Shown in pieces: positions 4,156 to 36,121 of a DNA stretch of 48,757 nucleotides. A program made the position numbers and the translations under genes. The stretch spans positions 1-48,757 of the forward strand of contig JAUQQP010000016.1 in NCBI GenBank assembly GCA_030549855.1, read 5' to 3'. The stretch comes from Cyanobacteriota bacterium SRBZ.bins.94.201705 (GTDB lineage: Bacteria > Cyanobacteriota > Cyanobacteriia > Cyanobacteriales > Cyanobacteriaceae). How positions within the stretch are numbered: position 1 is the first letter of the stretch; each line of letters opens with the position of its first letter. The notes under the pieces are model-generated. The model was not told where the DNA came from. It searched no databases and saw nothing but the letters and a program-made list of their open reading frames with translations.

Positions 4156-4162
4156 GAGGTAA

Positions 4163-5551
<1,389 letters not shown>

Positions 5552-17232: not shown

Positions 17233-18357
17233 TTACACCGCCTCATCCACAACTAGCCTGCCACTATTCATGACTTCTGCTAGGTTGATGACGGTTAACA
17301 TTTTTCCCTGATAGGGGATTACCCCCTGAGAGTATTCCGTTTGAATTTTTACTTCCTCCTTTTCTTCTTGTTGTAGCAACTGTTGGGGATTAATCATTAG
17401 AATTTCTCTGATTTCGTCTACTACTATGCCGGCAACAATTCCATCCACATTGACAACTATTGCCGGCTTTTCCTCTGTCGGGGGAGTTGGTGTTAAATTG
17501 AATTCCCTCCTAATATCTATTAGGGTTACTACTTCCCCCCTCAGGTTAATATTACCTACAACAAAGTCCGGAGTGCAAGGCACTGGCGTGTATTTCTTGA
17601 ATTTTATGAATTCTCTCACTAGGGGCAATTCTATGCCAAAATACTCTTGGTTTAGGGTAAATACGGCAATTGGTTTTAAGCCGGTAAAGTCTTTGAATTG
17701 TATTTTCTGTCTCAGACGTTTTGCCCTTTCTCTGAGTATTCTCTTCTCATCCTCTGTTATACCCGGGAAAAAGTCTGTTTTCCTATATCTCTTCTGCCGT
17801 TGATTTTCTTCTGTCTCCCCGGATGTTTCCTCTTCCCCCTCTTTTTCCCCCTCTTCACCAGAAGGTAACTCTTCTTCATCAGAAGGTAACTGGAATAAGT
17901 CTAATTCTAGGGATAGTGTTTGAGATTCTACATATCTTAGTAGCTTGTCTGTGTCTAGCAGAAAGACAATCTTCTCCCCCTTTTTCGCTACACCCCCAAT
18001 GAATTTCTCCTGTTTAAACTCTTCACTTCCCCTGTCATAGGGTAACTCGGAAGTGATGTCTTCTTCTTCAATAATGTCTACATCCTCTACTTGGTTAGTT
18101 ATTAATCCCACTTTTAATTCTTCATGTCTTACTACCACAATGTTGTCAGTAATCTGGTAGCCACTCGTATCATAGCCAAAACGAATATTTAAATCCATTA
18201 TTGGCAGAATTTCCCCCCTTAAATTTATAACCCCCACTATATCTTCTGGGGCGTCGGGAATGGGTGTCAAATCGGGAATGAAAAATACTTCTTGAATTTT
18301 CTCTGCCGGCAACCCGTAAGTCAGATTATTATGGTTGAAAGTTAGGTAGTAACTCAT
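17233..18357 (-). CDS. cheW: double CheW-domain chemotaxis adaptor
   Basis: This 374-aa protein has two CheW domains: about 1-150 (GLPAEKIQEVFFIPDLTPIPDAPEDIVGVINLRGEILPIMDL) and about 225-370 (YFGIELPLVREFIKFKKYTPVPCTPDFVVGNINLRGEVVTLIDI). They are joined by a very acidic, Glu-rich linker (about 160-190) and a basic stretch. CheW adaptors bridge receptor tips and CheA; two domains in one chain could cross-link an array. The start follows an AAAGGAGGAAAAC SD. It lies in the same direction as cheR but 2.7 kb downstream of it, an unusually long gap for a chemosensory operon. Confidence 0.93.
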   Translation of the reverse strand: MSYYLTFNHNNLTYGLPAEKIQEVFFIPDLTPIPDAPEDIVGVINLRGEILPIMDLNIRFGYDTSGYQITDNIVVVRHEELKVGLITNQVEDVDIIEEEDITSELPYDRGSEEFKQEKFIGGVAKKGEKIVFLLDTDKLLRYVESQTLSLELDLFQLPSDEEELPSGEEGEKEGEEETSGETEENQRQKRYRKTDFFPGITEDEKRILRERAKRLRQKIQFKDFTGLKPIAVFTLNQEYFGIELPLVREFIKFKKYTPVPCTPDFVVGNINLRGEVVTLIDIRREFNLTPTPPTEEKPAIVVNVDGIVAGIVVDEIREILMINPQQLLQQEEKEEVKIQTEYSQGVIPYQGKMLTVINLAEVMNSGRLVVDEAV

Positions 18358-21044
18358 TGTTTTCCTCCTTTGCTATATATGTCAAACCAAAACTACACCA
18401 CGCCGCCGTCAGTCTCAGTCGGCTTCTCACTGTCAGTCTCAGCCTTGTAACAACGCCAATAGGAATAGTATCTTCTTATTTCATCCTAAAACATATTTCT
18501 TGTGAATGTTTAACTATATCAACCAGTTAGTTTGTTTTAATATCTCTTTTTGCTAAAATAGTCTTACTCAACTCCTTCATGCTATCTCTTTCCACAACTC
18601 TGCTTCTTCTCCCATCCTGTTGAAACATGCTACTGTCTCCCCTCTGCCGCCTCAAAACCCCCCACTGCTTTCTGCTGTGGCAAGGCAATCCCATCAAACC
18701 TCGTCAATAACTTCCACTGTAGGCAATAGTTTCTACAACCCTAACACTTGACTTTGTTAGACAAACACTCGTCACCCCGCCAAAACCTCTTTCAACCTTA
18801 TCAACCACTTGGCAGTCAAAACCAAAAATCAACTCCTTATCTTTACAATTGCCTTCTCCTTTCACCCTCCTCTGGCTGATTAGTCACCCCCGGCTGTCTC
18901 CATAAGTAGGCTTTTTTTTCGGCATTTGGTTGAAATATCTCATATTCCCCCCCTCATCTAACTTTTGTCTCTTGAAGGAGTCTACGACACTGTCTTTTCC
19001 CCATCTTCTGCCGTTGGAATATAAGCGTCTTTTGACACTTTGTTGAAATATCCCACTGTTTCCTGTTATCCTGAACAATAGCATTTGACTGCCTGACTCT
19101 CATCGCCGTTTCAAGCTGAATATCCCCTGACTGTCTCAAAACGCTAGTCTATCTTCCCGATAAAAGCAAAAAGGGGAAAAAAAGAGGCAAAAAGAATTGG
19201 CTGTAGTGGGATAGAAACAGTTAACTGTGGTATTATGAAAGGGGTTTTTTCACCCCAGAAGGAAAAGGCTTACAATTATAAGGGTGTACAGTGAGACATA
19301 AGCGGAAATCTCCTGTTACCACCGCCGTTTATCTGAGATACCAATAATCACTCAAAGCCGATAAACACCCCCTTTTCCCCCCTAGGATTGAAACCTAAAA
19401 GACTTCCTCGAATAATCCTCTCCCCACCCTCGGCTGTTAAGATGTCTCGGAAGAGACGAAGGAAAGAGTTTTATCTGTTAGACTCTGTTACACAATCATC
19501 CCCTCTGTGGCAAAAAGACTTCATAACCCCGGCATGCTGAAATTTTTCGCCGTGGCTGTCTTAACCAGTTGGCTTCCTTTTTTGTCATTCAGCCTTAACC
19601 CCTTTTTTCCCTCTAACTCCCTTTCCTTTTTCCCCCTAGCGACTCGGCTAATCATCTCCTTTTCCGCTGATAGACTAAAACCGCCTGTAATTTTTTCAAT
19701 TCTCCTCCCTGGTTTCCCTTTCAGAGGCAGTAGTGACTGTATCGGAAATCCCTAGGCTTTTCAGAAATCTCTCTCTCTCCAGCCTTTTTTTCCACAAACT
19801 AGTCTACCACACACTACTGCCACAATGGTTGTTAAACATAGGCTAGTTGCCTCCCCCTCAAATTACTCTTAAACACACCTTCTCCCCCCATCTAGCTAAG
19901 ACTTCCTGTAATTGCCTTAAAAACTATCTTTTCCTTCTGTTTACTGGCAGGCTTTTTGTATTGGTATTCTCTTAAAACATTCCTCTGTCGAAACCATATT
20001 ATTCAACCTTGTAACTCCACCACTCCCTGTCTATCTTCTATTGCCCGAGATATCATTTTACTTGTTTGTTTTCGGATAATTCCCCACCTCCCTTACCATG
20101 CCTCGACAAAATTATTCAATAGCCTCAATTCACCTCTTTTACGGCTAAAATACAGTCAAATTTTGGTGTTAGGCTAAAACCCCTTGTAACTACTTCAACG
20201 ACTCAATAGTAGTCACCGCATCCGGTTTGTCTCGTTTAAAAAAGCCGTTGTCAGTTTTGCAGAAATCCCTCTAGTTTTACCTTACTGCCTCAACTCGTCA
20301 GTATCCTTTTCACTGACATGCCGATAGTAAATTCAATCCTGTGGGGTTTTGTTTGTTTTACCCCCAAGACTTTTTTTCTCCTCCAATCAACATCCATGCC
20401 TGCTGCGGCAATAACAGTCTTTCTTTCCTCCACAACTGCCTAGTCTTCAAAAACACCCTTTCACTGTCTCAAAAAATTCCCCTATTCTACGCCGCGACAA
20501 TACCCTTGTTTAACCCCATCGGACAATTATACCCCCACTGGAATATTAGCCCAAAACTCCCAGTAATTTCATCGTGTTGAAAACTCATCTATCCCCCTCT
20601 GCCGTTTTCTCTTACCCCAGACACCATTCAATCCCAATCCCTGTCTGCCGGTTAAAATCTGTTGTGATTGTGTAGACTACCCATACTCTTCCCCACTTAC
20701 TGCCTACTAAAACCTTTTGCTATTTTGGGGATAGTTTCTTTTTGGCATGAGGCTAAAACACCCCATAACCCCCTCCCTCGGCAATTTAATCTTCTCTAAT
20801 ACTAGCCCGAAAAAATAATCATAACCGTTTTGATAATTCTTATAGTGTCATAACTCCTGTTGTGGGGAAGCCATGTCAGGGTAATAGTCTTTCTCCCTTT
20901 TACCTGTCAACTAATCACTCCCCTCTCCTCCACAGACTGTCATCTCACCCCCCTAGTTATACATGCCGTTATAATGCCAAGGCATCTTGTAACTATGTCG
21001 AAAGAAACCCATGGGGTGACGGTATAACCCCCTGTCAACCGCCA
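18358..21044. other. 2.69-kb pyrimidine-skewed region with a degenerate interspersed motif
   Basis: No gene is recognised between cheR and cheW. The plus strand is C+T rich (so the minus, cluster-sense strand is purine-rich). A degenerate motif close to GGCTAAAACCCCTTGTAACT recurs at irregular spacing: the best copy is at about 20171, with weaker ones near 19672, 20652, 20707 and 20752 and half-copies (CTTGTAAC or CTGTAATT) near 18443, 19905, 20009 and 20982. A purine-rich island at about 19150-19400 includes an inverted repeat GTTTATC / GATAAAC (19327-19333 with 19360-19366). Short open frames show no family resemblance. Confidence 0.55.
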
Positions 21045-22655
21045 TCAAGCCGACATGTCTTGCAATTGTACCAATAATTCCTCTACAGATATATCATCCA
21101 ATTCTTCTATCCTATTACTTTTTGGCATCCCCTCTAAAATTTTCAAAGCTGTGTTTCTTAACTTCCTACTTTTGTCCACATCCCCACTACTTTGGTACAA
21201 ATTTGCTAGACTAATATAGGCTAGGAAGTAGTCTGGCTCAAGATAGATTACCCTTTTTAGGGCTTCCTTAGCGTCTTCTATATTCCCCTCCTCTTCTTCT
21301 ATCTGTGCTAAAAGTAAATAGGGTTTGATTTGCAGATTGTCTATAGACATAGCGGTATGACACCATTTCCTAGCCGCTTCATATCTGCCGAGGTTTGCAT
21401 TTATTTCTGCCATCAGATAGGTAGCAGTGTAGTGATGGGGAGACTGTTTTAAGAAAGCCTCCAACTTCTTTTCGGCTAGATGATAGGATTTTTGCTGGAT
21501 TAGTCTTCTTGCCTCCGCCAATAACTCCTCTTGTTGGGGGGTGTCAGCGATGGTTGGCTGGGTAGTTGTTGGCTGAATAGTTTTTGGCTTAGTGACTTTT
21601 GGCGGCATAAGATTGTTGGCAACTGGCAGAGGCGGGGAAGGCGAGGTGTGGTTTTTCACAGTGGGTGTGGTGGCTGAGGGGAAAATGACAGAAGGCTTGG
21701 AAGGTTGCGTTTTCTCTGCTTGGATTGCATTTACATTAGTATTCTCCCCGGAGAAAAACACATTGGTATCCGTCTTGGGGAGGCTAACAGGGAGATAGGC
21801 TGAGACTCCTCCACGCCGTTGATATACCACCGATTCCGGAAAAATTTTCGTGTGAAATGCTTTTACCTGATTATTACTCAATTCTGCATGCCCTGTGATT
21901 AAATAACCATTGGGTTTAAGGGTGTTATAGAATTTCGTTACTACCTTGTTAATAGCCGTCTCGGTGAAGTAAATAAATACATTCCGACAGATAATTAAAT
22001 CCATATCCTTCAATCCCATCTCGGCATTAGGCATCTCATCCCTTACCAGATTAAACTGTCTGAATCTCACCAGTCTTTTTATTTCTTCATTCAGTTGATA
22101 GTAGCCTCCCAGATTTTTGAAATAACGCTGTTTTATCTCCTCTTCTACTTGTCTAAATGACCATGTGTTATATACTGCCCTTTGGGCTTGATTCAGGGAT
22201 TCTCTGTTAATATCTAGTCCTATAATATCAATCTGCCAAGAATCCCAATCTGGTATTAATTCCCTTATTAGGATAGCCACAGAATATGGTTCTTGTCCAG
22301 TAGAACATCCCGCACTACAAATCCGCAACGTTTTTATTTTCTGATTGTTGCGTATCAACTCCGGCAAAATAGTCTGTTTCAGCAGTTTAAATTGCCCTTT
22401 ATCCCTGAAAAAATAGCTTTCTTTGTTAGTAATTAGACATACAAATCTTTGCCATTCTTCTTCGCTTTCCGGGGTTTCAGCTGCTAACAATTCATAATAA
22501 CTTTCCGGATTTGGCAGTTTTAATTCCCGCATCCTTTTTAATATGTTATCTCCCATTGCCCCGTAATTTTGATTTCGTATTTCTATTCCAGTCTGTTGGG
22601 CAATAAGGCTGACAAAATCCTCCCTCAGTCTAGGAGAAATCACTTCTGTATTCAT
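21045..22655 (-). CDS. cheR: CheR methyltransferase with C-terminal TPR domain
   Basis: CheR methylates glutamates on chemoreceptors using S-adenosylmethionine. Residues 1-275 are the CheR N-helical and Rossmann parts: ITNKESYFFRD (about 75-85), the SAM motif RICSAGCSTGQEPYSVAI (111-128), IIGLDINRESLNQA, and LIICRNVFIYF. A Pro/Thr-rich linker (about 290-375) leads to tetratricopeptide repeats (about 376-520, e.g. ALKRVIYLEPDYFLAYISLANLYQSSGD), a layout known for regulated CheR forms. It is paired with CheB across a 0.9-kb gap. CheR/CheB pairs are absent from the well-studied Synechocystis PCC 6803 tax loci, so this system can probably adapt. Confidence 0.95.
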   Translation of the reverse strand: MNTEVISPRLREDFVSLIAQQTGIEIRNQNYGAMGDNILKRMRELKLPNPESYYELLAAETPESEEEWQRFVCLITNKESYFFRDKGQFKLLKQTILPELIRNNQKIKTLRICSAGCSTGQEPYSVAILIRELIPDWDSWQIDIIGLDINRESLNQAQRAVYNTWSFRQVEEEIKQRYFKNLGGYYQLNEEIKRLVRFRQFNLVRDEMPNAEMGLKDMDLIICRNVFIYFTETAINKVVTKFYNTLKPNGYLITGHAELSNNQVKAFHTKIFPESVVYQRRGGVSAYLPVSLPKTDTNVFFSGENTNVNAIQAEKTQPSKPSVIFPSATTPTVKNHTSPSPPLPVANNLMPPKVTKPKTIQPTTTQPTIADTPQQEELLAEARRLIQQKSYHLAEKKLEAFLKQSPHHYTATYLMAEINANLGRYEAARKWCHTAMSIDNLQIKPYLLLAQIEEEEGNIEDAKEALKRVIYLEPDYFLAYISLANLYQSSGDVDKSRKLRNTALKILEGMPKSNRIEELDDISVEELLVQLQDMSA

Positions 22656-22884
22656 TTTTTTCTCTTTTCTCTCAAACCCTCTTAATTGTCATTTCTCCCA
22701 GGATAAAACCCCTTATACTCACCTTAACACACCTTCCCCTCCCTGCAACTTTTTTTTCCTCCCCCCTCTCCCTTCAGTCTCTTCAGTCTCTTCAGTCTCT
22801 TCTCTCCCAGTTTACCCTTTTTTCTCCTCTTGGACTCCCAAAATCTTGTTTTTTTTTCGCCATCCTCATCCTCTCTTTTCCCCC

Positions 22885-22913
22885 TTGACATTTTTCTCTT
22901 AAAAGGATAAAAT
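22885..22913 (+). promoter_or_regulatory. sigma-70 promoter of unit 1
   Basis: TTGACA at 22885-22890, 17-nt spacer, TAAAAT at 22908-22913. The -35 and spacing are consensus; it points away from cheR and toward cheB. Confidence 0.7.
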
Positions 22914-23050
22914 TATTAGGGGGGTAGTGTAAAAATTTTTGTTTACTCTTAAAATTACTAAATAGTGACACAAAAGTCAGAAGAGAGGGGCCAAGGGCGT
23001 TACAGACGGATGTTAAGATTAAGTTACAGAGAATTTTAAAAAAGTTAACA
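22885..23050 (+). ncRNA. tandem unit 1: candidate small-RNA gene
   Basis: This is the most diverged of three homologous units. After the promoter (22885-22913) come GTTTACT at 22941, TTACTAAATAGTGACA, a purine-rich variable middle, GTTACA at 23023-23028 and a closing GTTAACA at 23044-23050. Offsets of these blocks from the -35 (56, 138 and 165) match the other units almost exactly. There is no start codon followed by a conserved open frame, so a non-coding transcript is the simplest reading. No terminator with a U-run was found, so the RNA end is unknown. Confidence 0.45.
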
Positions 23051-23139
23051 TGACAAAAGTAAAAGGTAGAGACAAACTCTAGAAACGATTATAAATTGTA
23101 AACCCCAGGGGAAAAAGGGGAAAAACAGGCGGTCAGGCC

Positions 23140-23168
23140 TTGACATTTTCCATGTCAGAAGATAGAAT
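23140..23168 (+). promoter_or_regulatory. sigma-70 promoter of unit 2
   Basis: TTGACA at 23140-23145, 17-nt spacer, TAGAAT at 23163-23168, matching units 1 and 3. Confidence 0.72.
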
Positions 23169-23303
23169 AGTAATAGTGGTGGTATAACTATTTTTGTTTA
23201 CTTAAAGTTACTAAATAGTGACAGAGAAGACAGAAGGAAGAAGGGAAGGCGGTTTGAGGGAAATGTAAAGATACAGTTACAAAAGACTAAAAATAACTTA
23301 ACA
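23140..23303 (+). ncRNA. tandem unit 2: candidate small-RNA gene
   Basis: Promoter, then GTTTACT at 23196, AAAGTTACTAAATAGTGACA, a purine-rich middle, TGTAAAGATACAGTTACA ending at 23281, and CTTAACA at 23297-23303. Offsets from the -35 are 56, 136 and 163. It starts 255 bp after unit 1; an 89-bp linker between them is not conserved with the 118-bp linker that follows. Confidence 0.48.
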
Positions 23304-23421
23304 GGACAGGGGATTGTGGCCACTGGGTTTACTGGGGGAGAGGGGAGAGAGTTGCTGGGGAATATAACTGAGGGGGGAAGGGAAATCAGTGAGAAGTTAT
23401 GCAGGGGGGTAGGGCAGGCCC

Positions 23422-23450
23422 TTGACATTTCTTTCTTTAAAAGCTAGAAT
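23422..23450 (+). promoter_or_regulatory. sigma-70 promoter of unit 3
   Basis: TTGACA at 23422-23427, 17-nt spacer, TAGAAT at 23445-23450. Transcription would run into the 3' end of cheB on the opposite strand. Confidence 0.72.
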
Positions 23451-23587
23451 AGTTTCAGGGGGGGATTGTGACCATTTATGTTTACTTAAAGATACTAAAC
23501 AGTGACATAAAAGATAGAAGGGGCGGAGGAAAAGAGGGTAGAGGGGTTGTAAAGAATGAGTTACAAAATACTAAACATTACTTAAAG
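23422..23587 (+). ncRNA. tandem unit 3: candidate small-RNA gene overlapping the cheB 3' end
   Basis: Promoter, then GTTTACT at 23480, AAAGATACTAAACAGTGACA, a purine-rich middle, TGTAAAG, GTTACA at 23560-23565, and CTTAAAG at 23581-23587. Offsets from the -35 are 58, 138 and 165. The last 17 bp lie within the cheB coding region and supply its stop codon (23571-23573) on the other strand, so a transcript would be antisense to cheB mRNA. Confidence 0.48.
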
Positions 23588-24698
23588 AATCAGAGGAGGA
23601 GAGGAAGCCACGGGATTGGAGAAGTTGAAGAAGATGAGGGGCGATTTGGGGGAGGGGGAGGACCCGGTGGACGGCACCAAGTTTGATGGCTTCCTGAGGC
23701 ATACCGAAGACGATGGAGGTAGACTCGTCCTGGGCAATGGTATAGCCGCCTTTCTGTTTGAGGGTGAGAAGGCCCCTGGCACCGTCTCTACCCATGCCTG
23801 TCATTAAAACGCCCACGGCGGAAGGGCCATAGTAGTGGGCAACGGTTTCAAAGAGGACAGTGGCGGAGGGATTATGACTGTCTACTGGAAGATCGTCGCC
23901 GCAGTAGAATCTTCCCTGGGGATCAATCTTGAGATGGAGCCTTTCTGGGGGGAAGTATACTTTGCCGGGTTGTGGTTTCTCCCCAGTCTGGGCTATCTCC
24001 ACGGGGAGGGCTATGTTATTCCGTAGCCAGTCCAAAAAACCCTTCAAAAAGCCCGTGCTGATGTGTTGTACGCAGAGAATGGGCACCGGAAAATCGGGTG
24101 GCAGACTGCCTAACACTTCTTGAAAAGCCTGAGGGCCCCCCGTAGACGCCGCCATGGCCACCACTGCTATCGGGTTGGTCCTAGAAGACTGGCTCGCCTT
24201 TTCGGAGGGCGTTGCTGGGGGCTTGTGGATTTTGACCGGTTTTTCCCAGGGGTCTACCAGTTTTATCTTAGCTGGACGAACTCGTTTTGTAAATACCTTT
24301 ACCCCTGCTATTATTCGGATTTTCTCCAGCAACCGCTCGCCAATAGACTCGTATTCCTCCAGGGTGCCACTGGCGGGTTTGGGGAATATGTCTACCGCAC
24401 CGGCTTCTAGGAGTTGAAATATATTATTTTCGTCGTCTTCTTGAATACAACCACTGATAACCAAGATGGGCACCGGGTTGGTAGTCATTATCTTGTGAAT
24501 CAACTCCAACCCGTCCATCCTTGGCATCATCAAGTCAGTGCAGACTATGTCCGGCTTCACCTTAGGCAGTAGTTCCATGGCCTCCACCCCACTCCTTGCC
24601 GTCCCCACCAATGTCATGTCTTTAGCACCTTCTATAATACGTCTTATAATTGTAAGGGCCACGGGGGAGTCTTCTACCAACAACACTCTGATAGTCAT
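23571..24698 (-). CDS. cheB: CheB protein-glutamate methylesterase
   Basis: CheB removes methyl groups from receptors and deamidates Gln; its REC domain lets CheA switch it on. Residues 1-125 are the receiver (phospho-Asp55 in DIVCTDLMMPRMDG, Lys107 in FPKP). Residues about 175-365 are the esterase with catalytic Ser185 (AASTGGP), His212 (CVQHIS) and Asp305 (GMGRDGA). Length (375 aa) is normal. It is 77 bp downstream of the MCP gene and likely in its operon. The C-terminal residues and stop are encoded within the distal block of tandem unit 3. Confidence 0.97.
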   Translation of the reverse strand: MTIRVLLVEDSPVALTIIRRIIEGAKDMTLVGTARSGVEAMELLPKVKPDIVCTDLMMPRMDGLELIHKIMTTNPVPILVISGCIQEDDENNIFQLLEAGAVDIFPKPASGTLEEYESIGERLLEKIRIIAGVKVFTKRVRPAKIKLVDPWEKPVKIHKPPATPSEKASQSSRTNPIAVVAMAASTGGPQAFQEVLGSLPPDFPVPILCVQHISTGFLKGFLDWLRNNIALPVEIAQTGEKPQPGKVYFPPERLHLKIDPQGRFYCGDDLPVDSHNPSATVLFETVAHYYGPSAVGVLMTGMGRDGARGLLTLKQKGGYTIAQDESTSIVFGMPQEAIKLGAVHRVLPLPQIAPHLLQLLQSRGFLSSSDSLSNV

Positions 24699-24775
24699 AG
24701 GGTGGTCAGCCGCTGAAACCCGATGGTACGGCCTTTTTTACCTCCTATTTCCAGTTTAGGACAATTGGGGGCCCA

Positions 24776-26230
24776 TTAGATCATCGCCTCCAGATTCTTG
24801 GCTGTGGCACTTAACTCTGAAGTCCCTCGTCCTACTTGAGTGATACTGGCCGCCGTTTCCTGTGCCCCTTTGTTGATAGCCTCCATGGCCTCTAAAACTT
24901 GTTCTACTGCTTTGCCCTGTTGTCGGATGTTGAGGAGGATTTGTTGGTTATTCATGGCTACGGTGTTTATGGCTTCTAAGATGGAGGAGAAAGCTTTGGC
25001 CGTGTTTTCTGTGATGGACATGCCGGCATTGGCTGTCTTGGTGCCTTCATCGGTTACCATGACGGTGGTATTAATGGCATTTTGGATGTCTGTTACCAGT
25101 TGGCTGATATGAAGGGCCGATTGACGACTTTGTTCAGCCAGTTTCCGTATTTCTTCTGCCACCACAGCAAAGCCTTTGCCATATTCCCCTGCCCTCACTG
25201 CTTCTACCGAGGCGTTTAGGGCTAACATGTTGGTCTGTTGGGCTAAGTCGTTTACCAGGGAGGAAATACTGCCTATTTGACTGGTTTGTTCCGACAGACG
25301 TACAATTTGGTCAGCAATGGCCGCCACTTTATTCTTCAAGTCTATCATGGTGGCCACAGTTTCCTCTACGGACTGATTCCCCTGTTGGGCTAGCTGTAAC
25401 ACCTCTTGGGCGGCTTCTGCGGCTGCTTTAGCTTGTTCCTCTGACTGGTGTGCTGATGCCCTCAACTGGTCCATGGTGGTGGTTGTCTCATTTACCGAAG
25501 CCGCCTGGAGACTGGCGGTTTTCTCCTGTTGTTCCATAGAGGCAGCTATTTCGGCGGCAGAGGCAGAGATTTGGGCTACTGCCTGTTGGATTTCCTGGGC
25601 GATGGATTTAGCAATACTGTTGGCTAGTACTAAAGTAAAACCACCACCTCCGAAAATACCTATCAGAGTTACCAGTATGGCCACACTTCCTATCAACTCC
25701 CCCCGTCTGCCGATAGCCTCAATAATTTCATTTTCTGCCTGTATTATTGTGTCCGCCTTTTCATCCAAACTGACTGCCCTTATCCCCTTCAGTCTTTGAA
25801 TGGCCTCTTGAGTCTTGCCTGCCTCCAGTAAATTCATCACCTCGTCTGTTTTTTTTATAAAGGCTTCCAACTCCTTCTCAAACTCTGTCCATTGTTGCTT
25901 TATTTTCTCATTTTGAATTTCCGCCTGGGCGAGGGGGGCATGTTTTTCTATTTTTTTCCTGCCTTCCTGATAGGACTGTTGATAAGAAGCTAAGTCTCCC
26001 GGAAAAAGGGCGGCACCCCTGGCAGTGCGCAAAATCCTACCAGTACCTATTACCGTTTCCCTCATATTGTCTATCACCCTGTTAGCCCGGGCTAAATCTT
26101 CCCTTACGTTGTTGTTCAACTGGACGACTGCCCCGATAACGATACCGAAGAATACTAACACTCCCACGGGCAGGGCATAACCACGCAGGATTCTGTCTTG
26201 CAGTCTGTTGTCCTTGAGTGCTATTACCAT
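24776..26230 (-). CDS. methyl-accepting chemotaxis protein without a clear HAMP domain
   Basis: This 484-aa receptor has TM1 (about 17-37), a periplasmic four-helix-bundle-like region (about 40-177), TM2 (about 178-203), and a cytoplasmic signalling coiled coil (about 210-484). The hairpin tip is near residues 330-370 ([37 protein letters not shown]), the CheA/CheW contact. TM2 joins the signalling coil through only about 15 residues, so no full HAMP is seen. The gene lies 45 bp after cheA and before cheB. The ligand or light sensor is unknown; there is no GAF chromophore domain. Confidence 0.95.
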
Positions 26231-26275: not shown

Positions 26276-28873
26276 CTAGAATATGAGTCTGTCAAGGGTT
26301 TCCAGGAGGACATCCTGATTGAATTGTCCCTTGACGATGTAGGCATTGGCACCAGCCTGGGCGCCCCTTCTCTTGTCCTCTTCCTTGGCAAGAGAGGTGA
26401 CAATGATAATGGGAATTTCTCGGAATTCGGGATGCTGACGGACTCTGGCGGTGAATTCGATGCCATTGAGATTGGGCATTTCGATGTCGGAGATGATGGC
26501 ATCCACCTGTAGTCCAGAGAGGAGTTTGTTATAGCCATCCAATCCATCTACGGCAATGACCACCTCGTAACCAGCTTTTTCTAAGATGCGTTTTTCCTGG
26601 GTGCGTACAGCGATGGAATCTTCCACCAGTAGTACAACCGGTTTCCGTGTCCGTGGTGCTTCCTCTGGGATGACGGGGGTGGGTAAAGTAGTGGCATGGC
26701 GGACAGATTTAACCAAGTCGTAGGGATTAAGGATAGCACACACATCGCCATTGCCCAAAATAGTGGCCCCTGCTACATTGCGCACGCGTTTCAACAGCCT
26801 ACTTTGGGGTTTGACCACCACGTCTAAAACCTGTTTACAGTCATCCACCTCGAAGGCAACCATTTCCCCCTCTACCTGCAATATCACGGCCTTTTTGAGG
26901 GTTGATTGCTGTTGTTGTGTTCGTCTTTTCTGTTTTTGCTGGGAGGAAGAAACGGCAGGCAGTTGCAACAAATCGGCCATCTTCACCAGGGCTACCGGTT
27001 GCCCCCGCACAGAAACAGTAGGCTTGCCTTCCAGACTGTATACTTCTTCTGGCCTTATAAGCAGGGTTTGGACTATGGCATCCGTGGGTATTGCCTGCAA
27101 CCACCCCTGTACTTCGACCAGCATTACGTTAATACTGGCAACACTACTGGGGAGAGTGATACGGAAAACAGTGCCTCCCTGGGGGGGTGATTCCAGGGAT
27201 ATATTACCCTTTAATTTTTCTACATTATTTCGTAGTACATCTAGTCCTACACCCCTGCCAGAAATTTCCGTGACAAAGGTGCGGGTAGAAAAGCCGGGAA
27301 GGAAGATAAGATTACGTAGCTGTTGGGGGGTCATTTGGGCCAGTTGTTCAGCAGTGTAGAGTTTGCGTTTAAGGGCGGTTTGTCTTATTTTTTCCAAGTC
27401 CAACCCTCTGCCATCATCCCCCACCTCAATAACCACATTACTCCCGGTAGAGGTAGCTTTCAACCAGATTTTGCCTATTGGATTTTTTCCTTTTTCCTGT
27501 CTTTCTGCTGGAGTTTCAATACCATGGTCTACCGCATTACGCAATAGGTGTAGGAGGGGGTCCTTCATATCTTCTATAATCTGCTTATCAACAGTCAATT
27601 CCCCTCCCTCCATGACGAAATCCACCTGTTTGCCTTGTTCATTAGCCAAATCCCTTACCACCCGGGGAAACAGGAGGAAGATGGTAGAAAGAGGCAAAAG
27701 TCTTAAAGTCCTTACCTTATCCTCCAATTCCCGGCAGATAGTTTCCAGACGGCTGTTGTTTTCTGCAATACTAGTTTCCAGAAAGGACACCAACTCGTCC
27801 AGCTGTACCCAGATGCCCCGTTGTCTTCCCCCTTTTTTCCAACCCTCCCAAAGGCCCTTTAAATCCCTTACCCTCTCCTGGATGTGTGCCAGGCCGGTTT
27901 TGGCCACCCTCAACTCTCCAGTATGAACCATCAGGGCATCTAGATACTGGGTGGGTACCCTAATGGTATCTAACTGTCTATCACTTTTTCTACGACCATA
28001 ATACTCTCTGGTTTTCTTCTCTTCCTCCTCCTCTTGCCCCCGGAGACGTTCTAAAAGGCTCAGAGTACCTTCGTAGTCTACTTGTACTGGTTCACCGCTG
28101 AGGGCACAGTGGCAAAGGGAGGAGATGACTTGTATTGCCTGTTGGAGGGTTTTATTAGCCTGAGGGGGGAGACTTTTAGATTTTTGTTTGAAGGCTTCGC
28201 AGACATCCCGAAACCGGTGGAGGAGACTCTCAATAATCCCCAAGCCGACAAAGCGGGAGTCTAATTCAAAGCTTTCTATCTCCTTAAGCAGTTCATCTGG
28301 TATTTCCCAGTCTGGGTTTTCTTCTAGCAGGGATAGGTGGGCCTTGATTTTGTGAAGATGTTCCTCTTGAGAGAGACTATAGATTTCCCGTAGAGATTCG
28401 TCTTCGATGAAAAGGGGAGAGGGAAGGGGGGTTTTTTCCGTAGGCTGAGTTGGTTGGGGGTAGAGGTTTGTTTTGTCTTTTTCGGGGAGGAAGGCATTTA
28501 ACCGCCGGCTTAACTCTTCTGGGTTGACACCGCTGGGTTGATCAGTTACTGCCTCTTGTACCAGTTTCCCCAATGCCCCCACCACCTCATACATGGTATC
28601 CCCTAACTCTTTTGACCATTCCAGGGTACCATTTTTCAGGCCCCCAAACAACTCTTCTAGCTGATGGGCTAGGGTTTCTACGGATTTCACCCCTACCACC
28701 CGGGAGTCTCCTTTAAGACTGTGGGCTTCCCGCAGAAGAGTTGCCAACAACTCCTGATTGTAAGGCTCCTTTTCCAGGTTTAGCAGTCCAGTCTCCAGAT
28801 TTTGGACATGTTCCCCACCGGAGACCTGATATATTTCTCTTAGTTCTACATCCTCTATCATTGTCCTCGACAA
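26276..28873 (-). CDS. cheA: CheA histidine kinase with two Hpt domains and C-terminal REC
   Basis: This 865-aa kinase has Hpt1 (1-110; phospho-His51 in REAHSLKGDSRVVG), Hpt2 (about 155-260; the same position reads KEIESFELDSRFVG with Glu200 instead of His), a dimerisation region (about 310-400), HATPase (HLLRNAVDHGIE; DDGRGLD; GFSTR; GRGVGLDVL), a CheW-like domain (about 575-720) and REC (about 740-865; ISDIEMPNLNG). A CheA fused to REC is common in cyanobacterial tax/pil loci. The start follows a weak context with no clear SD. It precedes the MCP by 45 bp and follows the PATAN-REC genes, so it is the core of one transcription block. Confidence 0.96.
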   Translation of the reverse strand: MSRTMIEDVELREIYQVSGGEHVQNLETGLLNLEKEPYNQELLATLLREAHSLKGDSRVVGVKSVETLAHQLEELFGGLKNGTLEWSKELGDTMYEVVGALGKLVQEAVTDQPSGVNPEELSRRLNAFLPEKDKTNLYPQPTQPTEKTPLPSPLFIEDESLREIYSLSQEEHLHKIKAHLSLLEENPDWEIPDELLKEIESFELDSRFVGLGIIESLLHRFRDVCEAFKQKSKSLPPQANKTLQQAIQVISSLCHCALSGEPVQVDYEGTLSLLERLRGQEEEEEKKTREYYGRRKSDRQLDTIRVPTQYLDALMVHTGELRVAKTGLAHIQERVRDLKGLWEGWKKGGRQRGIWVQLDELVSFLETSIAENNSRLETICRELEDKVRTLRLLPLSTIFLLFPRVVRDLANEQGKQVDFVMEGGELTVDKQIIEDMKDPLLHLLRNAVDHGIETPAERQEKGKNPIGKIWLKATSTGSNVVIEVGDDGRGLDLEKIRQTALKRKLYTAEQLAQMTPQQLRNLIFLPGFSTRTFVTEISGRGVGLDVLRNNVEKLKGNISLESPPQGGTVFRITLPSSVASINVMLVEVQGWLQAIPTDAIVQTLLIRPEEVYSLEGKPTVSVRGQPVALVKMADLLQLPAVSSSQQKQKRRTQQQQSTLKKAVILQVEGEMVAFEVDDCKQVLDVVVKPQSRLLKRVRNVAGATILGNGDVCAILNPYDLVKSVRHATTLPTPVIPEEAPRTRKPVVLLVEDSIAVRTQEKRILEKAGYEVVIAVDGLDGYNKLLSGLQVDAIISDIEMPNLNGIEFTARVRQHPEFREIPIIIVTSLAKEEDKRRGAQAGANAYIVKGQFNQDVLLETLDRLIF

Positions 28874-29008: not shown

Positions 29009-30217
29009 TCAGACCATCCCTGACTGTCTTGCCATCACGGGTTGAAGATAGCGGTTGACGGTGGCAATCAACTTGTCGGCTACGGGGGGTTTAGGGATAA
29101 AATCGGTAGCACCAGCTAATTTGGCCTTGGTTTTATCTAGGGTGCCATCTTTCGCAGAGAGGATAATAATAGGCGTATTCTGGAAAACAGGACTTTCTCG
29201 TAAAAAGCGACAGACACTGTGGCCACTGGCGTTGGGCAAGTTCAGGTCTAGTATGATAAGATCTGGCTTATGCTCTAGGATTTTACCTAACCCCCTCATT
29301 GGTTCACTGATAAGTAAAGTAGCAAAACCCGCACCCTCTAGTATTTTTTTGAGGGTGTGTAGTACTATAGGGCTGTCGTCAATACAGGCTATCAGAAACC
29401 TACCCGGTTTACTGTTTGTGGTGTTACGATGCCTTACTTCCGAAAACGAATCAACTGGGAGGGTATTGCTATTTGTTTCTAGGGAAAGTGGCAAGTCTGG
29501 GATGGGGGATAAGACAATTAACCCATTTTCCTCCCATTTTTTGAGGGATTCCATCACCCGAGGAAGGGGAAGCCTCATTGTTTTAGCCACATCCCAAAGA
29601 GTAAATTCCCCGTTTAGGTATTGCCGTTGTGTGGTATCCTTTATGGTGCCCTGTCCCTTTTCCGAAAGGGTGGGTGCGAGGGTTGGCATTATACCATTGG
29701 TTGTTTGTTTTCCCAGGGTTTCATACAGTGTTTCTGCCTCTTTCAGGAGGCCTTCTATCTCCGAGGGGGTTAAACTGAGGAAGAAGGAGAGAGTAGAATG
29801 TATTTCTCCCCTATCCTGCCAGGATACCACTACCCTTCCAGACAACAATAGTTCTAATATACACTCTCTGGCTACCTCGGCGATGACAGATTTAGCCGCT
29901 TCCAGGGGGATTAGTTTCTTGGAAACCATCTCCCGGAGACAACGAGACTCCCACACCGGGTGAAAGTCTGAGTTATCGGCGTATTGTGCCCAAGTGGTTA
30001 TATCCTCTGTCTGTTTTCCCAAGGCGCGACGGAAGCGTCTTACCCTATGTTCAGAGTCGATAAAATACTGTAAAAAGCCCCTCAAAAAGAAGGCGGTTTT
30101 TAGCCTACCCCCTTCACAGGAAAAGCTCAATTCTCCGGTGGCTTTTTGTTTGTATATTTCCCACAACTTCTGTAGAAACAGACTCCGAAAATCTCCTGCA
30201 ACCTTTTCTCTTTCCAT
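29009..30217 (-). CDS. PATAN-REC (PatA/PixG-type) response regulator 1
   Basis: N-terminal PATAN/DUF4388 domain (SLFLQKLWEIYKQKATGEL; FFLRGFLQYFIDSEH), a winged-helix-like stretch (LWDVAKTMRLPLPRVMESL), then a C-terminal REC (FLIACIDDSPIVLHTLKKIL; phospho-Asp in LIILDLNLPNASG; Lys in IPKPP). In Synechocystis such proteins (PixG, PilG type) are outputs of tax systems for phototaxis and pili. I start at ATG 30217 (MEREKVAGDF); the frame extends to a TTG at 30280 with no SD and an atypical N-terminus. About 265 bp of its REC are nearly identical to the next gene. Confidence 0.92.
   Translation of the reverse strand: MEREKVAGDFRSLFLQKLWEIYKQKATGELSFSCEGGRLKTAFFLRGFLQYFIDSEHRVRRFRRALGKQTEDITTWAQYADNSDFHPVWESRCLREMVSKKLIPLEAAKSVIAEVARECILELLLSGRVVVSWQDRGEIHSTLSFFLSLTPSEIEGLLKEAETLYETLGKQTTNGIMPTLAPTLSEKGQGTIKDTTQRQYLNGEFTLWDVAKTMRLPLPRVMESLKKWEENGLIVLSPIPDLPLSLETNSNTLPVDSFSEVRHRNTTNSKPGRFLIACIDDSPIVLHTLKKILEGAGFATLLISEPMRGLGKILEHKPDLIILDLNLPNASGHSVCRFLRESPVFQNTPIIILSAKDGTLDKTKAKLAGATDFIPKPPVADKLIATVNRYLQPVMARQSGMV
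29076..29340. repeat. gene-conversion tract, copy 1 (pairs with 30732-30996)
   Basis: These 265 bp match 30732-30996 with five mismatches and no gaps (about 98%), a constant offset of 1656 bp. Identity falls sharply on both sides. The tract encodes most of the REC domain. Confidence 0.95.
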
Positions 30218-30280
30218 GACAGTAGCACCCCCATTTCCGTAGCTTTCTCTTTTTAATTTTTCTTCTTGTGTTGGAGTCAA

Positions 30281-30667
30281 CTTGCAAAGTATTCTTTGCC
30301 CTCTCCTCTTAAATCATAAGCAAATTTTCCCCGAAATAACTTTAATTTTTGTACAGCTCTAACTGTTACTTTTTGTTTTTTTTTAAACTTTTTTTTGAAG
30401 GTCTAGCAACCACGCCAGCATTTTGTTATACCAGACACCCTTTTCCGGAAGAACATGTGATGAGATATACATTCTACTTCTACCTCTACTTCTAGTTTGT
30501 CCCCACAGGGTTGGTATATGATTGCCTCTGATTTCCACCAAATGGGGATTTGGACTATTTGTTTAAGGATTTCGTTACAAAATTAAACATTCCCCACTTT
30601 GTTAAGAAAAAATAAAGCCCCCAAAAGAAGGGAGAAATTAAATCGTTAACAGACAATTAACAGCCAA
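30281..30667. other. intergenic gap between PATAN-REC genes 1 and 2
   Basis: This 387-bp gap is AT-rich with T-runs (about 30376-30405). It probably holds a promoter for regulator 1 on the minus strand, but I see no convincing -35/-10 pair. No gene is supported. Confidence 0.45.
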
Positions 30668-31816
30668 CTAACAGATACTCTGTTTTGCCGTCACAAGGTT
30701 AAGATGTCGCCTGACGGTAGCAATTAAATCTTCGGCTACGGGGGGTTTAGGGATAAAATCGGTAGCACCAGCTAATTTGGCCTTGGTTTTATCTAGGGTG
30801 CCATCTTTTGCAGAGAGGATAATAATAGGCGTATTCTGGAAAACAGGACTTTCTCGTAAAAAGCGGCAGACACTGTGGCCACTGGCGTTGGGCAAGTTCA
30901 GGTCCAGTATGATAAGATCTGGCTTATGCTCTAGGATTTTACCTAACCCCGTCATTGGTTCATTGATAAGTAAAGTAGCAAAACCCGCACCCTCTAAAGT
31001 TTTCTTGAGGGTTTGCAACAAAACGGGGCTATCGTCAATACAGGCAATGAGATAATTATCCCTAGATTCGGCCTCTTGGGAAGACTTGTCAGCTGTTTTG
31101 GTAGGGAGGGGGGTTGTTTCCTCTTCCTCTGGTGGCGGGGTAACAAAAGTGATCAAGCCCTTATTTTCCCAGTCTTTGAGAGATTTGGCCACCGCCTCTA
31201 TGGGCTGTTTTAGGGAGGCGGCTAGGTCCCACATGGTATAATAGCCGTTGAGATAACCCCTTTGGAGTGCGTCTTTAACCATTGTCTTCCCCTTGGCTGA
31301 CAAAAGAGGCGCCAGATTAGGTTGCCGCCAGCCTTCCTTCCACCACAGTTGACTCAGTTTTCTAACCCTGTTGTTAATCTCAAGAATTTCCGAGGGAGGA
31401 AGACTGAGGAAATAGGCGAAAGGGGAAGAATCTATCTCTCCTTTTTCCTGCCATTCCATTGTCATCCCCCCATCAAGACACAATTCCAGCAGACACTCCT
31501 CCGTCACTTGCTCTATAATGGACTTGGCCTGTGGTAAGCCGATTTCCTTTTTCACCACTCCCCGACGCAGTATTTCATACTCCCACAACTGTCCTTCGGC
31601 AAAGACTGTGGCATATTTTGGGTATTTTGTTGCTACTAGTCTTTGCCAACGTCTTTTCCTGGTATAACTGCAAACTACATATTGCAACATCCCCCTGCCG
31701 AAGAAAACAGTCTTAACCCCGCCATTTTTCTCCCGCAAAAGCAGCCTGCCACTAGCCTTTTTCCGGTAAATCCCCTCTACTTTTTCCTGCCATTGGGACA
31801 AAAAATCACTTCTCAT
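30668..31816 (-). CDS. PATAN-REC (PatA/PixG-type) response regulator 2
   Basis: This 382-aa paralogue has a PATAN domain starting at once (FLSQWQEKVEGIYRKKASGRL; GRGMLQYVVCSYTRKRRWQRL), the winged-helix-like part (MWDLAASLKQPIEAVAKSLKDWENKGLI), an acidic/Thr linker, and a REC with intact acidic pair (CIDDSP), phospho-Asp (IILDLNLPNASG) and Lys (IPKPP). The N-terminal domain is well diverged from regulator 1, while the REC is almost the same. It lies 120 bp downstream of regulator 3. Different PATAN domains with one shared REC suggest different outputs under one CheA. Confidence 0.93.
   Translation of the reverse strand: MRSDFLSQWQEKVEGIYRKKASGRLLLREKNGGVKTVFFGRGMLQYVVCSYTRKRRWQRLVATKYPKYATVFAEGQLWEYEILRRGVVKKEIGLPQAKSIIEQVTEECLLELCLDGGMTMEWQEKGEIDSSPFAYFLSLPPSEILEINNRVRKLSQLWWKEGWRQPNLAPLLSAKGKTMVKDALQRGYLNGYYTMWDLAASLKQPIEAVAKSLKDWENKGLITFVTPPPEEEETTPLPTKTADKSSQEAESRDNYLIACIDDSPVLLQTLKKTLEGAGFATLLINEPMTGLGKILEHKPDLIILDLNLPNASGHSVCRFLRESPVFQNTPIIILSAKDGTLDKTKAKLAGATDFIPKPPVAEDLIATVRRHLNLVTAKQSIC
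30732..30996. repeat. gene-conversion tract, copy 2 (pairs with 29076-29340)
   Basis: Second copy of the 265-bp tract, direct orientation. See copy 1; the third paralogue (31937-33184) is clearly more diverged in this part. Confidence 0.95.
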
Positions 31817-31936
31817 CTCTACCCTACTTTTTCCCTCGTTTTACACTTCTTAATATATTATCTATCAGCAGGGAAATTTCAAGTAGTCTGGGTAACAAAA
31901 AAGGGGGAATATAGGCCTTTTGGGGGAGATAAACCC

Positions 31937-33184
31937 CTAACCGGTAGTCATTTGGCTTTTTTGAACTTGTTTTGGAAAAAATCTGTGAATTACACTAAGT
32001 AACTCTTCCTCCGTAGCCGATTTATTGAGGAAATCGGTAGCCCCGACTAATTTGGCTTTCGCCCTGTCTACAGAACTATCTTGGGCAGTTAGAATAACGA
32101 TGGGGGTTTTTTGGAATACTGGGCTTTCCCGTAAGAATTTGCACACACTATAGCCATTAGCATTGGGCATTTTTAAGTCTAGCAAAATCAAATCAGGCCT
32201 ATGTTCAATTAACTTAGCAAATCCCGTCATGGGCTCATTTATACTTAATACTTTAAACCCCGCTCTTTCGAAGATTTTTCTCAGATTATGAACCACAATG
32301 GGACTGTCATCAATGCAGGCAATTAAGGGTCTATCTTTCCCACCAAAAACGCCAGGAGTATGTGGGGTTATCTCAACAGATTCCTCTTTTTCTCCTGAAA
32401 ATAAAGCTGGTTCTTCCTCTGGGGTTTGCGTCTGTTCTTCTATTACTGAAACAGAGGTAGAATCCTCAATTTTGATGGTCAAATCTGCCACAGGATTGAA
32501 GACAATTAAGCCTTTTTCCTGCCAAGTGAGTAGGGAAGCGACAGTATTTTCTATCCCCTGTTTGGACTTCAAGGCAATATCCCAGAGAGTATACTCACCA
32601 CTGAGGTATTTCAGTTGCAAGGGGTTTTTCACCAGGCTTCTAGCCTTTTCCAACAAAACTGGTGCCATGGAGGGGTTGATAGAAGTCAAGCCCCCCTTCA
32701 GCCACTTACCCCTGATAGCCTCTACTTCATCGAATACTGGGTGAGTATCCGTAGGTGCCAGACTGAGGAAGTAGGAGAAGGGACACTTGACCCTATCTGT
32801 GGGTGTCCATTGTAACTCAATCTGGTCTTCTAGGGAAACTTCCAACAGACACTCCCTCAACACATAAGTTATTATCTGCTTGGCTTCCTCCAGGGTGATG
32901 GCCTTACCACATACCCCCTGGTACAACAAATCATACTCCCAGGGTTGACAATTTAGAACCTTTGTGGGATAATTCCAATGAGGACAGAACTGACCGAGGG
33001 CCCTAAACCAACGTCTGACTCGGTGGACTGAGTCGGTTACATACTGCAGTCTGCCCGAGAGGAGGTAGAAGGTTTTTAGGTTTGTTCCCCCTCTTACTGT
33101 CAATTCCCCTGTAGCCTTGTCATCATACAGCTGATCTAATTTCTCCCTCACTGTGGGGAGTATTTTTTCGCCACTTACGCTCAT
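31937..33184 (-). CDS. PATAN-REC (PatA/PixG-type) response regulator 3
   Basis: This 415-aa protein is first in the transcription order. PATAN domain at about 10-190 (KLDQLYDDKATGELTVRGG; FYLLSGRLQYVTDSVHRVRRW), winged-helix-like part (LWDIALKSKQGIENTVASLLTWQEKGLIVF), an acidic linker with TPEEEPALFSGEKEE, and REC (LIACIDDSPIVVHNLRKIF; LILLDLKMPNANGYSV; Lys in LNKSA where the others have KPP). Its REC was not homogenised with the other two. A GAGGAG SD sits 7-10 nt before the ATG. It follows dnaE-N by 312 bp and probably opens the chemosensory operon. Confidence 0.93.
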   Translation of the reverse strand: MSVSGEKILPTVREKLDQLYDDKATGELTVRGGTNLKTFYLLSGRLQYVTDSVHRVRRWFRALGQFCPHWNYPTKVLNCQPWEYDLLYQGVCGKAITLEEAKQIITYVLRECLLEVSLEDQIELQWTPTDRVKCPFSYFLSLAPTDTHPVFDEVEAIRGKWLKGGLTSINPSMAPVLLEKARSLVKNPLQLKYLSGEYTLWDIALKSKQGIENTVASLLTWQEKGLIVFNPVADLTIKIEDSTSVSVIEEQTQTPEEEPALFSGEKEESVEITPHTPGVFGGKDRPLIACIDDSPIVVHNLRKIFERAGFKVLSINEPMTGFAKLIEHRPDLILLDLKMPNANGYSVCKFLRESPVFQKTPIVILTAQDSSVDRAKAKLVGATDFLNKSATEEELLSVIHRFFPKQVQKSQMTTG

Positions 33185-33496: not shown

Positions 33497-36121
33497 TTAA
33501 AAAGGGCACTCAAACAACTCCAAACCTCTAGAGAAAACCTCGTCAATGGGCAACATTTTCCCGTCTTTTGTCATAATTTTGTGTTCTGGCGTAGCTCTAA
33601 TTACTCTTCCATCTTCCAATTCATATTCAAAAACCTCCTGAAAGCCGCGACTGTGCCATTGGGCTATAGGCTGGGCATAAACAAAGCCGTTTTTATCCAC
33701 AGTATATACATGACATTTTATATTTTCTTCGACGATTTTGCCGATGGGAAGTGCCCCATATTCCACAGTCAAAATTTCTGTATCATAACTCAGACAATAT
33801 TCGGCAAAGTTTAGCATCTGTTCAAATAGTTTTTCAGCAATATTTTCAGGCACCCCATTTTTCACCGCCCCATCGATAAATTTTTCCCGGTGTTTCTTCA
33901 TCTCTTCCGGTTTTTTCTTACCCATGGCGCGACGGAGTAAATCGGCTTCCCCTAGAGTATAACCGGCTAATTCTTGTGCCATTTTCATGATTTGTTCCTG
34001 ATATACCAAAACGCCATAGGTTTCCCTTAAAATAGGCTCTAGTAGGGGATGCTCGTAAGTGATAGGTTCTCTACCGTGTTTTCTATTGATAAACAGGGGT
34101 ATTAGGCCTGCATCTAGGGGACCGGGACGATAAAGGGCTAAAATGGAAGATATATCCTCGATTCCCGACGGTTTTAAGTCTTTGACTATTTGCTTCATTC
34201 CCTCGGATTCTAGTTGGAAAATGCCTTCTAAGTCTCCTGATTCCAGTAGTTTGTGGGTTTTTGCCACGTCTTCTGGCAATTTTTTACTATTACCCCTGGC
34301 TATAATTTCCAAGGCTTTTCTTTCTCCCAGCGGTAATTCTTCTACGTTTATTTCCAGATTTTGATTCTGTTTAATTAACTCTGCCGTCTTATAGATATTA
34401 GTAAGATTTTTTAAGCCCAAAAAGTCCATTTTCAGCAAACCTAAAGACTCCAAATCTTCCATGGAATACTGAGTAGTAATGGCCCCCTCTTCGTTACGCT
34501 GCAGGGGCACAATTTCATCGAGAGGTTGACTGGAAATAACCACCCCAGCCGCATGGACTCCTACAGTTTTGTTGGTGCCTTCTAGTCTAATTGCCATGTC
34601 AACCCAACGTTTTACCCGAGGATCATTTTCGTATTTTTCCTTAAATTCAGGGGAGGGAGTTTCATCAGAAATCATCACCTCTAATTTTGTAGGTTTACCC
34701 CTAGACACCGGAATCAATTTACTCATATTATCTGCTTCTGTATAAGGTATTCCCATTACCCTTGCCACGTCCTTTAATACCGCTTTGGATGTCATGCGAT
34801 TAAAGGTAATAATTTGAGCTACATTTGCCTCCCCATATTTCTCGGTTACGTATTTAACAACCTGTTGTCTTTTTTCAAAACAAAAGTCTGTATCAATATC
34901 AGGCATAGACTTACGTTCAGGATTTAAAAATCGCTCAAATAATAGCCCATGATGGACTGGATCAATATTAGTAATTCCCAGGGAATAGGCTACTAATGAA
35001 CCTGCCGCTGAGCCTCTACCTGGCCCTACTGGTATATTATTATCTCTGGCAAATTTTATATAATCCCAAACCACTAAAAAGTAGGTAGAAAACCCCATTT
35101 TTTCAATCATTTTTAACTCGTATTCCAGTCTCTCACGGTATTCTTTTGGCACTTCACTGCGTTGGACACATTTTAGTCTCTTTAACAAGCCCTCCCAGGC
35201 AATCTCATGCAAATAAGTGGCCGGAGTATGTCCGGTTGGCACTTCAAATTTTGGCAATCGGAATTCTCCTAAAAGGTCATAAGGTTTTACCTTTTCGGCT
35301 ATTTCTAAAGTATTTTTGATAGCCTCCTCAATTATATCACTGTCTAGATGATCTCTAAACAAAAGGCGCATTTCTTCAGCGGATTTAAGATATTCTGTAC
35401 CGGAATATCTCATCCGGTTTTCCTCTTCTATTTTTTTGTTGGTTTGGATACACAAAAGGGCATCGTGGGCCTCTACATCATAACAAGAGATAAAGTGGGA
35501 ATCATTGGTAGCAATTATCTTGATGCCCAACTCCTTTCCTATCTTTACTAATTCCACATTTACAATTCTATCTTCTCGGTAGCCATGGTCCTGTATTTCT
35601 AAGTAAAAATCATCGGCAAAAACCTCTTTATACCACTTAGCAACCTCTCTAGCTTTGTCATAATTTCCTACTAGAATATTCTGGGGGATTTCTCCTCCTA
35701 AACAGGCACTAGTTACAATTAATCCCTCTTTGTATTTTTTTAGTAAATCTTTGTTAATACAAGGTCGAGCAAAAATACCACTGCCTTGGTAACCATGAAG
35801 ATGAGAGATGGTGGTGAGTTTAACAAGGTTGCGGTAACCCTGTTTGTCTTTTGCTAAAACCACCTGATGGTATTTTTTGACTCGTTTGTGACGGGTAGTA
35901 ATATCACCGTTGATGACATACATCTCATTGCCAATAATAGGTTTAATGCCTTTCTCCAGACAGTGTTTGACTAGTTGTATGGCACCATACATTACACCAT
36001 GATCAGTTATAGCAATAGCGGGGAATTGCAACTCTGCCGCGCGTTTTACCAAAGCCGGAATTTGAGAGGCGCCATCCAGCAGACTATACTCAGTATGAAG
36101 GTGTAATGGCACAAAAGACAT
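33497..36121 (-). CDS. dnaE-N: DNA polymerase III alpha subunit, N-terminal half with split-intein N fragment
   Basis: Residues 1-775 are the N-extein: PHP domain ([19 protein letters not shown]), polymerase palm with [15 protein letters not shown] holding catalytic Asp residues, and [19 protein letters not shown]. The chain reaches FAEY and then Cys776 starts a 99-residue intein N fragment ([40 protein letters not shown]). This fragment associates with the 36-residue C fragment made from 1774-3093 and splices the two exteins. The split site and Cys+1 junction are those of the classic cyanobacterial DnaE intein. The intein N ends (LELFECPF) without the longer Npu-type tail. Confidence 0.98.

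Follow-up and report, generated by a model that had tools for sequence, protein, structure and literature searches.

Three tandem promoter-bearing noncoding units in the cheB-cheR gap of a cyanobacterial chemosensory operon, a candidate antisense array

The window, i.e. the whole stretch of 48,757 nucleotides analysed (contig JAUQQP010000016.1 of Cyanobacteriota bacterium SRBZ.bins.94.201705), carries a chemosensory operon on the minus strand. The operon includes a CheA-like kinase gene (26276-28873), an MCP gene (24776-26230), cheB (23571-24698) and cheR with a TPR tail (21045-22655), followed further along by a double CheW gene (17233-18357). The gap between cheB and cheR is 915 bases long and contains three units on the plus strand: unit 1 at 22883-23055, unit 2 at 23138-23310 and unit 3 at 23420-23591. 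They are separated by linker 1 (23056-23137) and linker 2 (23311-23419). The cheR gene lies behind the units, and its leader occupies 22656-22884 on the minus strand. The last block of unit 3 extends over the stop codon of cheB (23571). The preliminary description had the units firing toward cheB; the orientation is as described, and more precisely they point at the 3' end of this upstream operon gene, against the operon.

Several other features of the operon region were recorded. The cheR leader contains a 9-bp tandem repeat, CTTCAGTCT, in 3.4 copies at 22772-22802. The 2.7-kb gap between cheR and cheW (18358-21044) holds a 30-nt element five times, 63-77% identical to the reference copy, and no conspicuous unit-like promoters lie beside it. 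Three consecutive paralogous response-regulator genes, which we take to be PatA-like from their look, are located upstream of the CheA-like gene at 29009-33184.

Unit 1 consists of a promoter, a 5' box, a purine-rich middle and a degenerate 3' box. The promoters located by the promoter scan are TTGACA-17-TAAAAT at 22885-22913 in unit 1 and TTGACA-17-TAGAAT at 23140-23168 and 23422-23450 in units 2 and 3, exactly as first described. The 5' boxes are found at 22941-22970 (with a 2-nt insertion), 23196-23223 and 23480-23507, and the 3' blocks at 23023-23050, 23276-23303 and 23560-23587, all on the plus strand. When the positions were checked, the offsets given earlier for GTTTACT (+56, +56 and +58) and GTTACA (+138, +136 and +138) also proved correct. 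A whole-genome search with unit 2 returned unit 3 with 74% identity (E 9.6e-22) and unit 1 with 72% identity (E 1.8e-18).

Two genomes of the genus were compared, the window's own (G000) and a sister genome (G001). G000 has full units at two loci, the cheB-cheR array and a solo copy on the minus strand at G000:C45:8562-8759, flanked by an AEC-type transporter gene, whose 3' end it faces, and by a phosphoketolase-like gene. This sole further full copy in the genome has a promoter of perfect consensus, TTGACA-17-TATAAT, which argues against a generic promoterless scattered repeat, the refutation envisaged in the preliminary description. G001 has one unit, in a cheB-cheR gap of 441 bases and in the same orientation as in G000. 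No recognised co-oriented gene follows the units at any of these three places; what lies ahead in each case is the 3' end of a convergent gene, namely cheB in both genomes or the AEC-type transporter gene.

Nine promoter-like sites were found on both strands of 22400-24800, compared with 2.8 (sd 1.5) in shuffled sequences, and the promoters of units 1-3 each match the consensus at 11 of 12 positions. The pattern TTGACA-N16-18-TANNAT occurs seven times in 105,963 bases, composed of six stretches of the own and the sister genome chosen largely for holding units or boxes, and five of the seven occurrences are those of the five units. Across the five units 17 of the 29 promoter columns are invariant. 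Averaged over the columns of the five copies, majority identity is highest in the 5' block (0.89), followed by the promoter (0.86), the 3' block (0.80), the leader (0.74) and the middle (0.69).

The box reads approximately ACTWAAMATTACTWAAM and is a direct repeat with a 10-bp period. It starts about 25-30 bp beyond the -10 element and usually recurs about 90-110 bp further on. Over eight loci the distance from the -10 element to the box varies from 24 to 37, so that there is no fixed helical phase. A weight matrix built from eight 5' boxes also finds the 3' block in the units; its score there was reached by none of 1000 shuffles for unit 3, where the block is a second box copy, by 3 for the C45 copy, by 11 each for unit 2 and the sister unit, and by 35 for unit 1. 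The 5' and 3' blocks are most likely one motif, which is supported in four of the five units and marginal in unit 1.

Four further loci have the box while lacking the remainder of the unit. In the transporter gap of G001 a 3' box lies beside the stop codon, and the promoter and the 5' box are absent. The murJ loci of both genomes have a -10 element that lacks a recognisable -35 and is followed, 24 bases on, by a 5' box, with the 3' box absent; in G000 this locus is situated between a gene for a Dam-type methylase and the convergent murJ. The methylase gene, whole in G000, is present at the G001 murJ locus as a remnant of residues 154-298 in two pieces (L181:16489-16919, G001:C12). The fourth locus, after the DUF445 gene of G001, has a 5' box only; no box match was found at the corresponding place in G000, where the promoter-like part is kept. 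Since the motif occurs apart from the unit, the box behaves like a DNA operator, and it appears more like such an operator than like part of an RNA. A search of 388 genomes for the box with at most one mismatch found it beyond the genus in 6, three of which belong to a single genus and share a single sequence, and the control had hits in 3 genomes; outside the genus the exact box is near the control level. The zero-mismatch match at C8 (control: 0 matches) is not independent, the box pattern having been written after that match was seen. Viral contigs gave 0 box matches.

Two known cyanobacterial sites were compared with the box. HLR1, the binding site of RpaB, is given as KTTACAWW-N2-KTTACAWW, and near a start site it is described as repressing (PMC9241938, PMC11633204). 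Like HLR1, the box consists of two direct repeats with a 10-bp period, and the best HLR1-like position falls on the 5' box in four of the five units; unlike HLR1, those four boxes have TTACT for TTACA, or a further change, in both halves. HLR1 in the form KTTACAWWNNKTTACAWW fits with 2-3 mismatches per unit and was rejected, the fit being no better than that of shuffles except in unit 2 (shuffles as good, out of 300: 91 for unit 1, 4 for unit 2, 59 for unit 3, 80 for the C45 copy and 65 for the sister unit). Canonical HLR1 with up to one mismatch is enriched in both genomes, with 53 versus 14 and 47 versus 19 control matches, which argues that the specificity of RpaB has not simply drifted. 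The box would then be something other than HLR1, or a variant class. The cyanobacterial Pho box is described as repeats of CTTAACCT with 3-bp linkers (PMC1906773). It shares with the box a CTTAA core in direct repeats and differs in period, which is 10 rather than 11 in the box, and in the CC that the box lacks. As a site of SphR (YTTAAYYW, 11-bp period) it matched on the reverse strand with 2-3 mismatches, and 42-186 of 300 shuffles were as good across the five units; it was also rejected. A literature search with the box strings returned nothing relevant.

The preliminary description had asked whether the unit recurs near cheB and cheR in other cyanobacterial genomes. It does so in the cheB-cheR gap of the sister genome, and no full unit was seen outside the genus. 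Model R1 was built from the five full units, whose scores (E < 1e-26) hold by construction; in 15 genomes of the family its next match had an E-value of 2.1e-5. Some match at E up to 0.1 was obtained in 11 of the 15, and the 13 family genomes other than G000 and G001 yielded no full copy. A plain DNA search of 60 relatives yielded, outside the genus, a single match of 24 bases. Model R2, which covers the core only and was used with strict filters, was run against 148 genomes drawn from the order, a set without a G001 match. Besides G000, 11 genomes gave weak matches, one or two each and at best E 4.4e-4, a number of genomes above what the nominal E-values lead one to expect. As 6 of the 11 loci examined fall within or overlap open reading frames, these matches were treated as background. 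The C8 and DUF445 loci were among those from which R2 was built, and its scores there hold by construction; R1, built without them, scored them at E 0.0057 and 2.1e-5, and the murJ locus of G001 was recovered by R2 although it lies outside its build set (E 1.3e-5). Relatives of cheR lie near genes named cheB-like by eye from their translations in G005 (gap of 144 bases), G014 (90 bases) and G004 (with an open reading frame between). No unit match was found at these three loci, from which it follows that the operon does not need the unit in general. Among the best 80 of 524 CheB relatives in named genomes, one is close (61%, Cyanobacteria bacterium RI_101), and R1 found nothing in its 7,907-base locus at E up to 10.

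The units appear to be noncoding. Comparison of their open reading frames bore out the earlier statement that no frame is conserved: a short GTG frame partly common to units 1 and 2 is cut off in unit 3 after its second codon, a 72-aa GTG frame that runs into cheB antisense is peculiar to unit 3, and no small open reading frame conserved across the units was found. RNA structure was rejected as the cause of the conservation, RNAalifold giving -0.58 kcal/mol for the five units with 0 of 12 pairs compensated. Compared with shuffles, the single folds of units 1, 2 and 3 and the sister unit, the four covered by these statistics (the C45 copy was folded without shuffles), have z values of 0.89, -2.10, 1.25 and 0.64; unit 2 beats 193 of 200 shuffles and the others are no better than shuffles. 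The opposite strands of units 1-3 have z values of -0.67, 0.42 and 0.02. No Rfam family matched the units at the gathering score, and at relaxed E the only match was to a snoRNA-type family (E 1.5).

No terminator-like site was found at the unit ends in any of the five units. The sole plus-strand candidate between the units of the window is a weak terminator-like hairpin at 23405-23423, which starts inside linker 2. The leader of the sister unit contains a hairpin followed by T's at L183:4071-4095 (G001:C28, minus strand), 8 bases past the -10 element and just before the 5' box, with no such site found in the other four units. It is a possible early attenuator; it counts against read-through there and could instead stop most transcripts early. 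The preliminary description took conserved blocks with a drifting middle as a sign of selection on a transcript. The conservation pattern is as reported, but the view that the blocks reflect an RNA is not supported: conserved fold, covariation, open reading frame and unit-end terminator were all looked for and not found, and the blocks are one repeated motif that occurs away from the units too.

The purine content of the plus strand rises from 20% in the cheR leader (80% purine in the cheR sense) to 65% from unit 1 on, so that the bias flips at unit 1, and linkers 1 and 2 have 73% and 72% purine on the unit strand. The five highest 686-nt purine segments of the 48.7 kb all fall within this array region, and the genes of the window have a mean of 54.1% purine on the coding strand (26 genes; of 30 open reading frames, four lying antisense over others were set aside). 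In the four other gaps flanked by minus-strand genes on both sides, the plus strand is 33-49% purine. Of the overlapping 135-nt segments, 5 of 494 in those four gaps reached 63% purine, as did 32 of 847 across all the other gaps analysed, where the highest value was 69%. A corresponding flip is seen in the sister genome at its single unit. In the transporter gap the purine content of the gene strand is 18-42% over the G000 unit, whereas in G001, where the promoter is absent, it is low only in the first 50 bases. The bias is not general, as the three values recorded after the box at box-only loci are mixed (58%, 50% and 69%). The flip at the first promoter, the high values of the linkers and the contrast in the G001 transporter gap support rightward transcription through the linkers. 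The bias is an indirect sign and was in part copied by duplication, so that the copies do not count as independent.

The reading that we favour, tentatively and as one that is quite possible though short of probable, is that regulated promoters, arrayed in the cheB-cheR gap, produce noncoding RNA that is antisense to the cheB-cheR mRNA. The array would comprise three noncoding transcription units (one in the sister genome), each with a strong sigma70-type promoter by consensus match. These promoters lie on the strand opposite the che operon and are oriented into it. They would fire rightward, and their transcripts would read through the linkers, as the want of terminator-like sites at the unit ends suggests. 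The resulting noncoding RNA would be complementary to that part of the cheA-mcp-cheB-cheR transcript which covers cheB and cheR. A putative regulator would bind the boxes in the early transcribed region and set the success rate of the promoters. Least certain are the last steps, by which the array might lower downstream cheR expression through antisense pairing or polymerase collision and the copy number might scale this effect; the effect on cheR is conjecture, because cheR's own promoter has not been located. If the reading is right, the locus offers a compact test, inside a chemosensory operon, of whether promoter copy number tunes antisense control, and the box is a concrete bait for finding its putative regulator.

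The preliminary description proposed a candidate small-RNA family. A promoter-bearing noncoding tandem family is what was found; discrete small RNAs are possible and not indicated. In this form the units would produce trans-acting RNAs of about 130 nt with sibling copies, and the blocks would be RNA seed regions, an explanation that we regard as somewhat unlikely. It would account for the separate promoter of each copy, the near-constant distance of the blocks, the solo copy at C45 and the fold of unit 2, and it is at odds with the missing consensus fold and compensated pairs, the unremarkable folds of units 1 and 3 and the sister unit, the unit ends without terminator-like sites, the blocks that occur apart from units and the linkers that equal the units in purine richness. 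The model for such a family is NsiR1, a demonstrated RNA of about 60 nt encoded upstream of hetF in Nostoc sp. PCC 7120 by 12 tandem copies, which have partly diverged, carry DIF1-type promoters of their own and include one antisense to the hetF 5' UTR (PMC9045159). The present array resembles NsiR1 in its tandem divergent copies within one gap, each with a promoter (here by consensus), and differs from it in copy number (3) and unit length (about 165 bp), in its consensus TTGACA promoters and recurring DNA box, and in being a predicted rather than a demonstrated source of RNA. The comparison with NsiR1 was by description, and the two arrays may perhaps work alike. No other cyanobacterial array of this kind was met in the literature examined, and the cheB-cheR array would be a second one. 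Among the matches listed (titles and abstract starts) for antisense RNA and cheB in cyanobacteria none concerned such an array; a search for tandem promoters with small RNA and chemotaxis had no match, and one for sibling or multicopy small RNAs found none on such an array.

That the array is instead cis-regulatory DNA, its binding boxes controlling the gene behind (cheR or the phosphoketolase-like gene) with the plus-strand promoters secondary, seems quite unlikely to us. One motif recurs within most units, the units lie upstream of both genes in the same relative orientation, and the box in the transporter gap of the sister genome is without a promoter and upstream of the phosphoketolase-like gene, all of which speaks for this explanation. 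It sits less well with a promoter conserved about as strongly as the 5' box, with the murJ loci, behind which lies a methylase 3' end or remnant and no divergent gene, and with a purine bias that indicates transcription leading away from cheR. A MITE-like repeat, duplicated and either selfish or without function, is very improbable. Its case would be the difference in copy number between the cheB-cheR gaps of the sister genomes (3 versus 1) and the solo copy in another gap of one genome where the other has only the 3' box; there are just two full-unit loci in the genome, the promoter and boxes are conserved while the middle drifts, and the sister genome keeps place and orientation. A search of 22400-24200 for inverted repeats detected none inside a unit, and with so few copies a MITE or dispersed repeat was rejected.

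A further repeat array is present downstream of the DUF445 gene in both genomes, with segments composed of ATGTAAAAAAATGTTA, about 29 bases and TATAATGG. G000 has two clear copies and one weaker copy before the contig end (L216:2737-3387, G000:C8), and G001 has two or three clear copies together with degenerate ones over 2.8 kb (L181:3081-5917, G001:C12). The first part of the segments resembles HLR1 on the opposite strand, and the array is looser than that between cheB and cheR. A consensus promoter scan of the DUF445 gap of G001 found no excess (6 versus 5.6). These observations are suggestive only of a second tandem array, of HLR1-like plus -10 units; together with the cheB-cheR array they hint that the genus may tend to place tandem promoter units in its long gaps. 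A wider proposal, which we consider unlikely, is that the genus would use such arrays as dosage-tunable noncoding modules, with the cheB-cheR array as an antisense brake under a putative new box-binding regulator and the DUF445 array as a second case.

Three minor observations concern other parts of the two genomes' sequences examined. The antisense RNA IsrR (Rfam RF01419, 166 bits) was detected at L009:17482-17668 (G000:C45), opposite a gene which is presumably CP43/IsiA-like. In the window, a TPP riboswitch at 4069-4161 directly precedes the gene at 4166, which we take to be ThiC-like. Also in the window, an 874-aa open reading frame (33497-36121) ends, and a 439-aa one (1774-3093) starts, in the manner of the two halves of a split-intein dnaE, and judged from their translations they presumably code for the DNA polymerase III alpha subunit.
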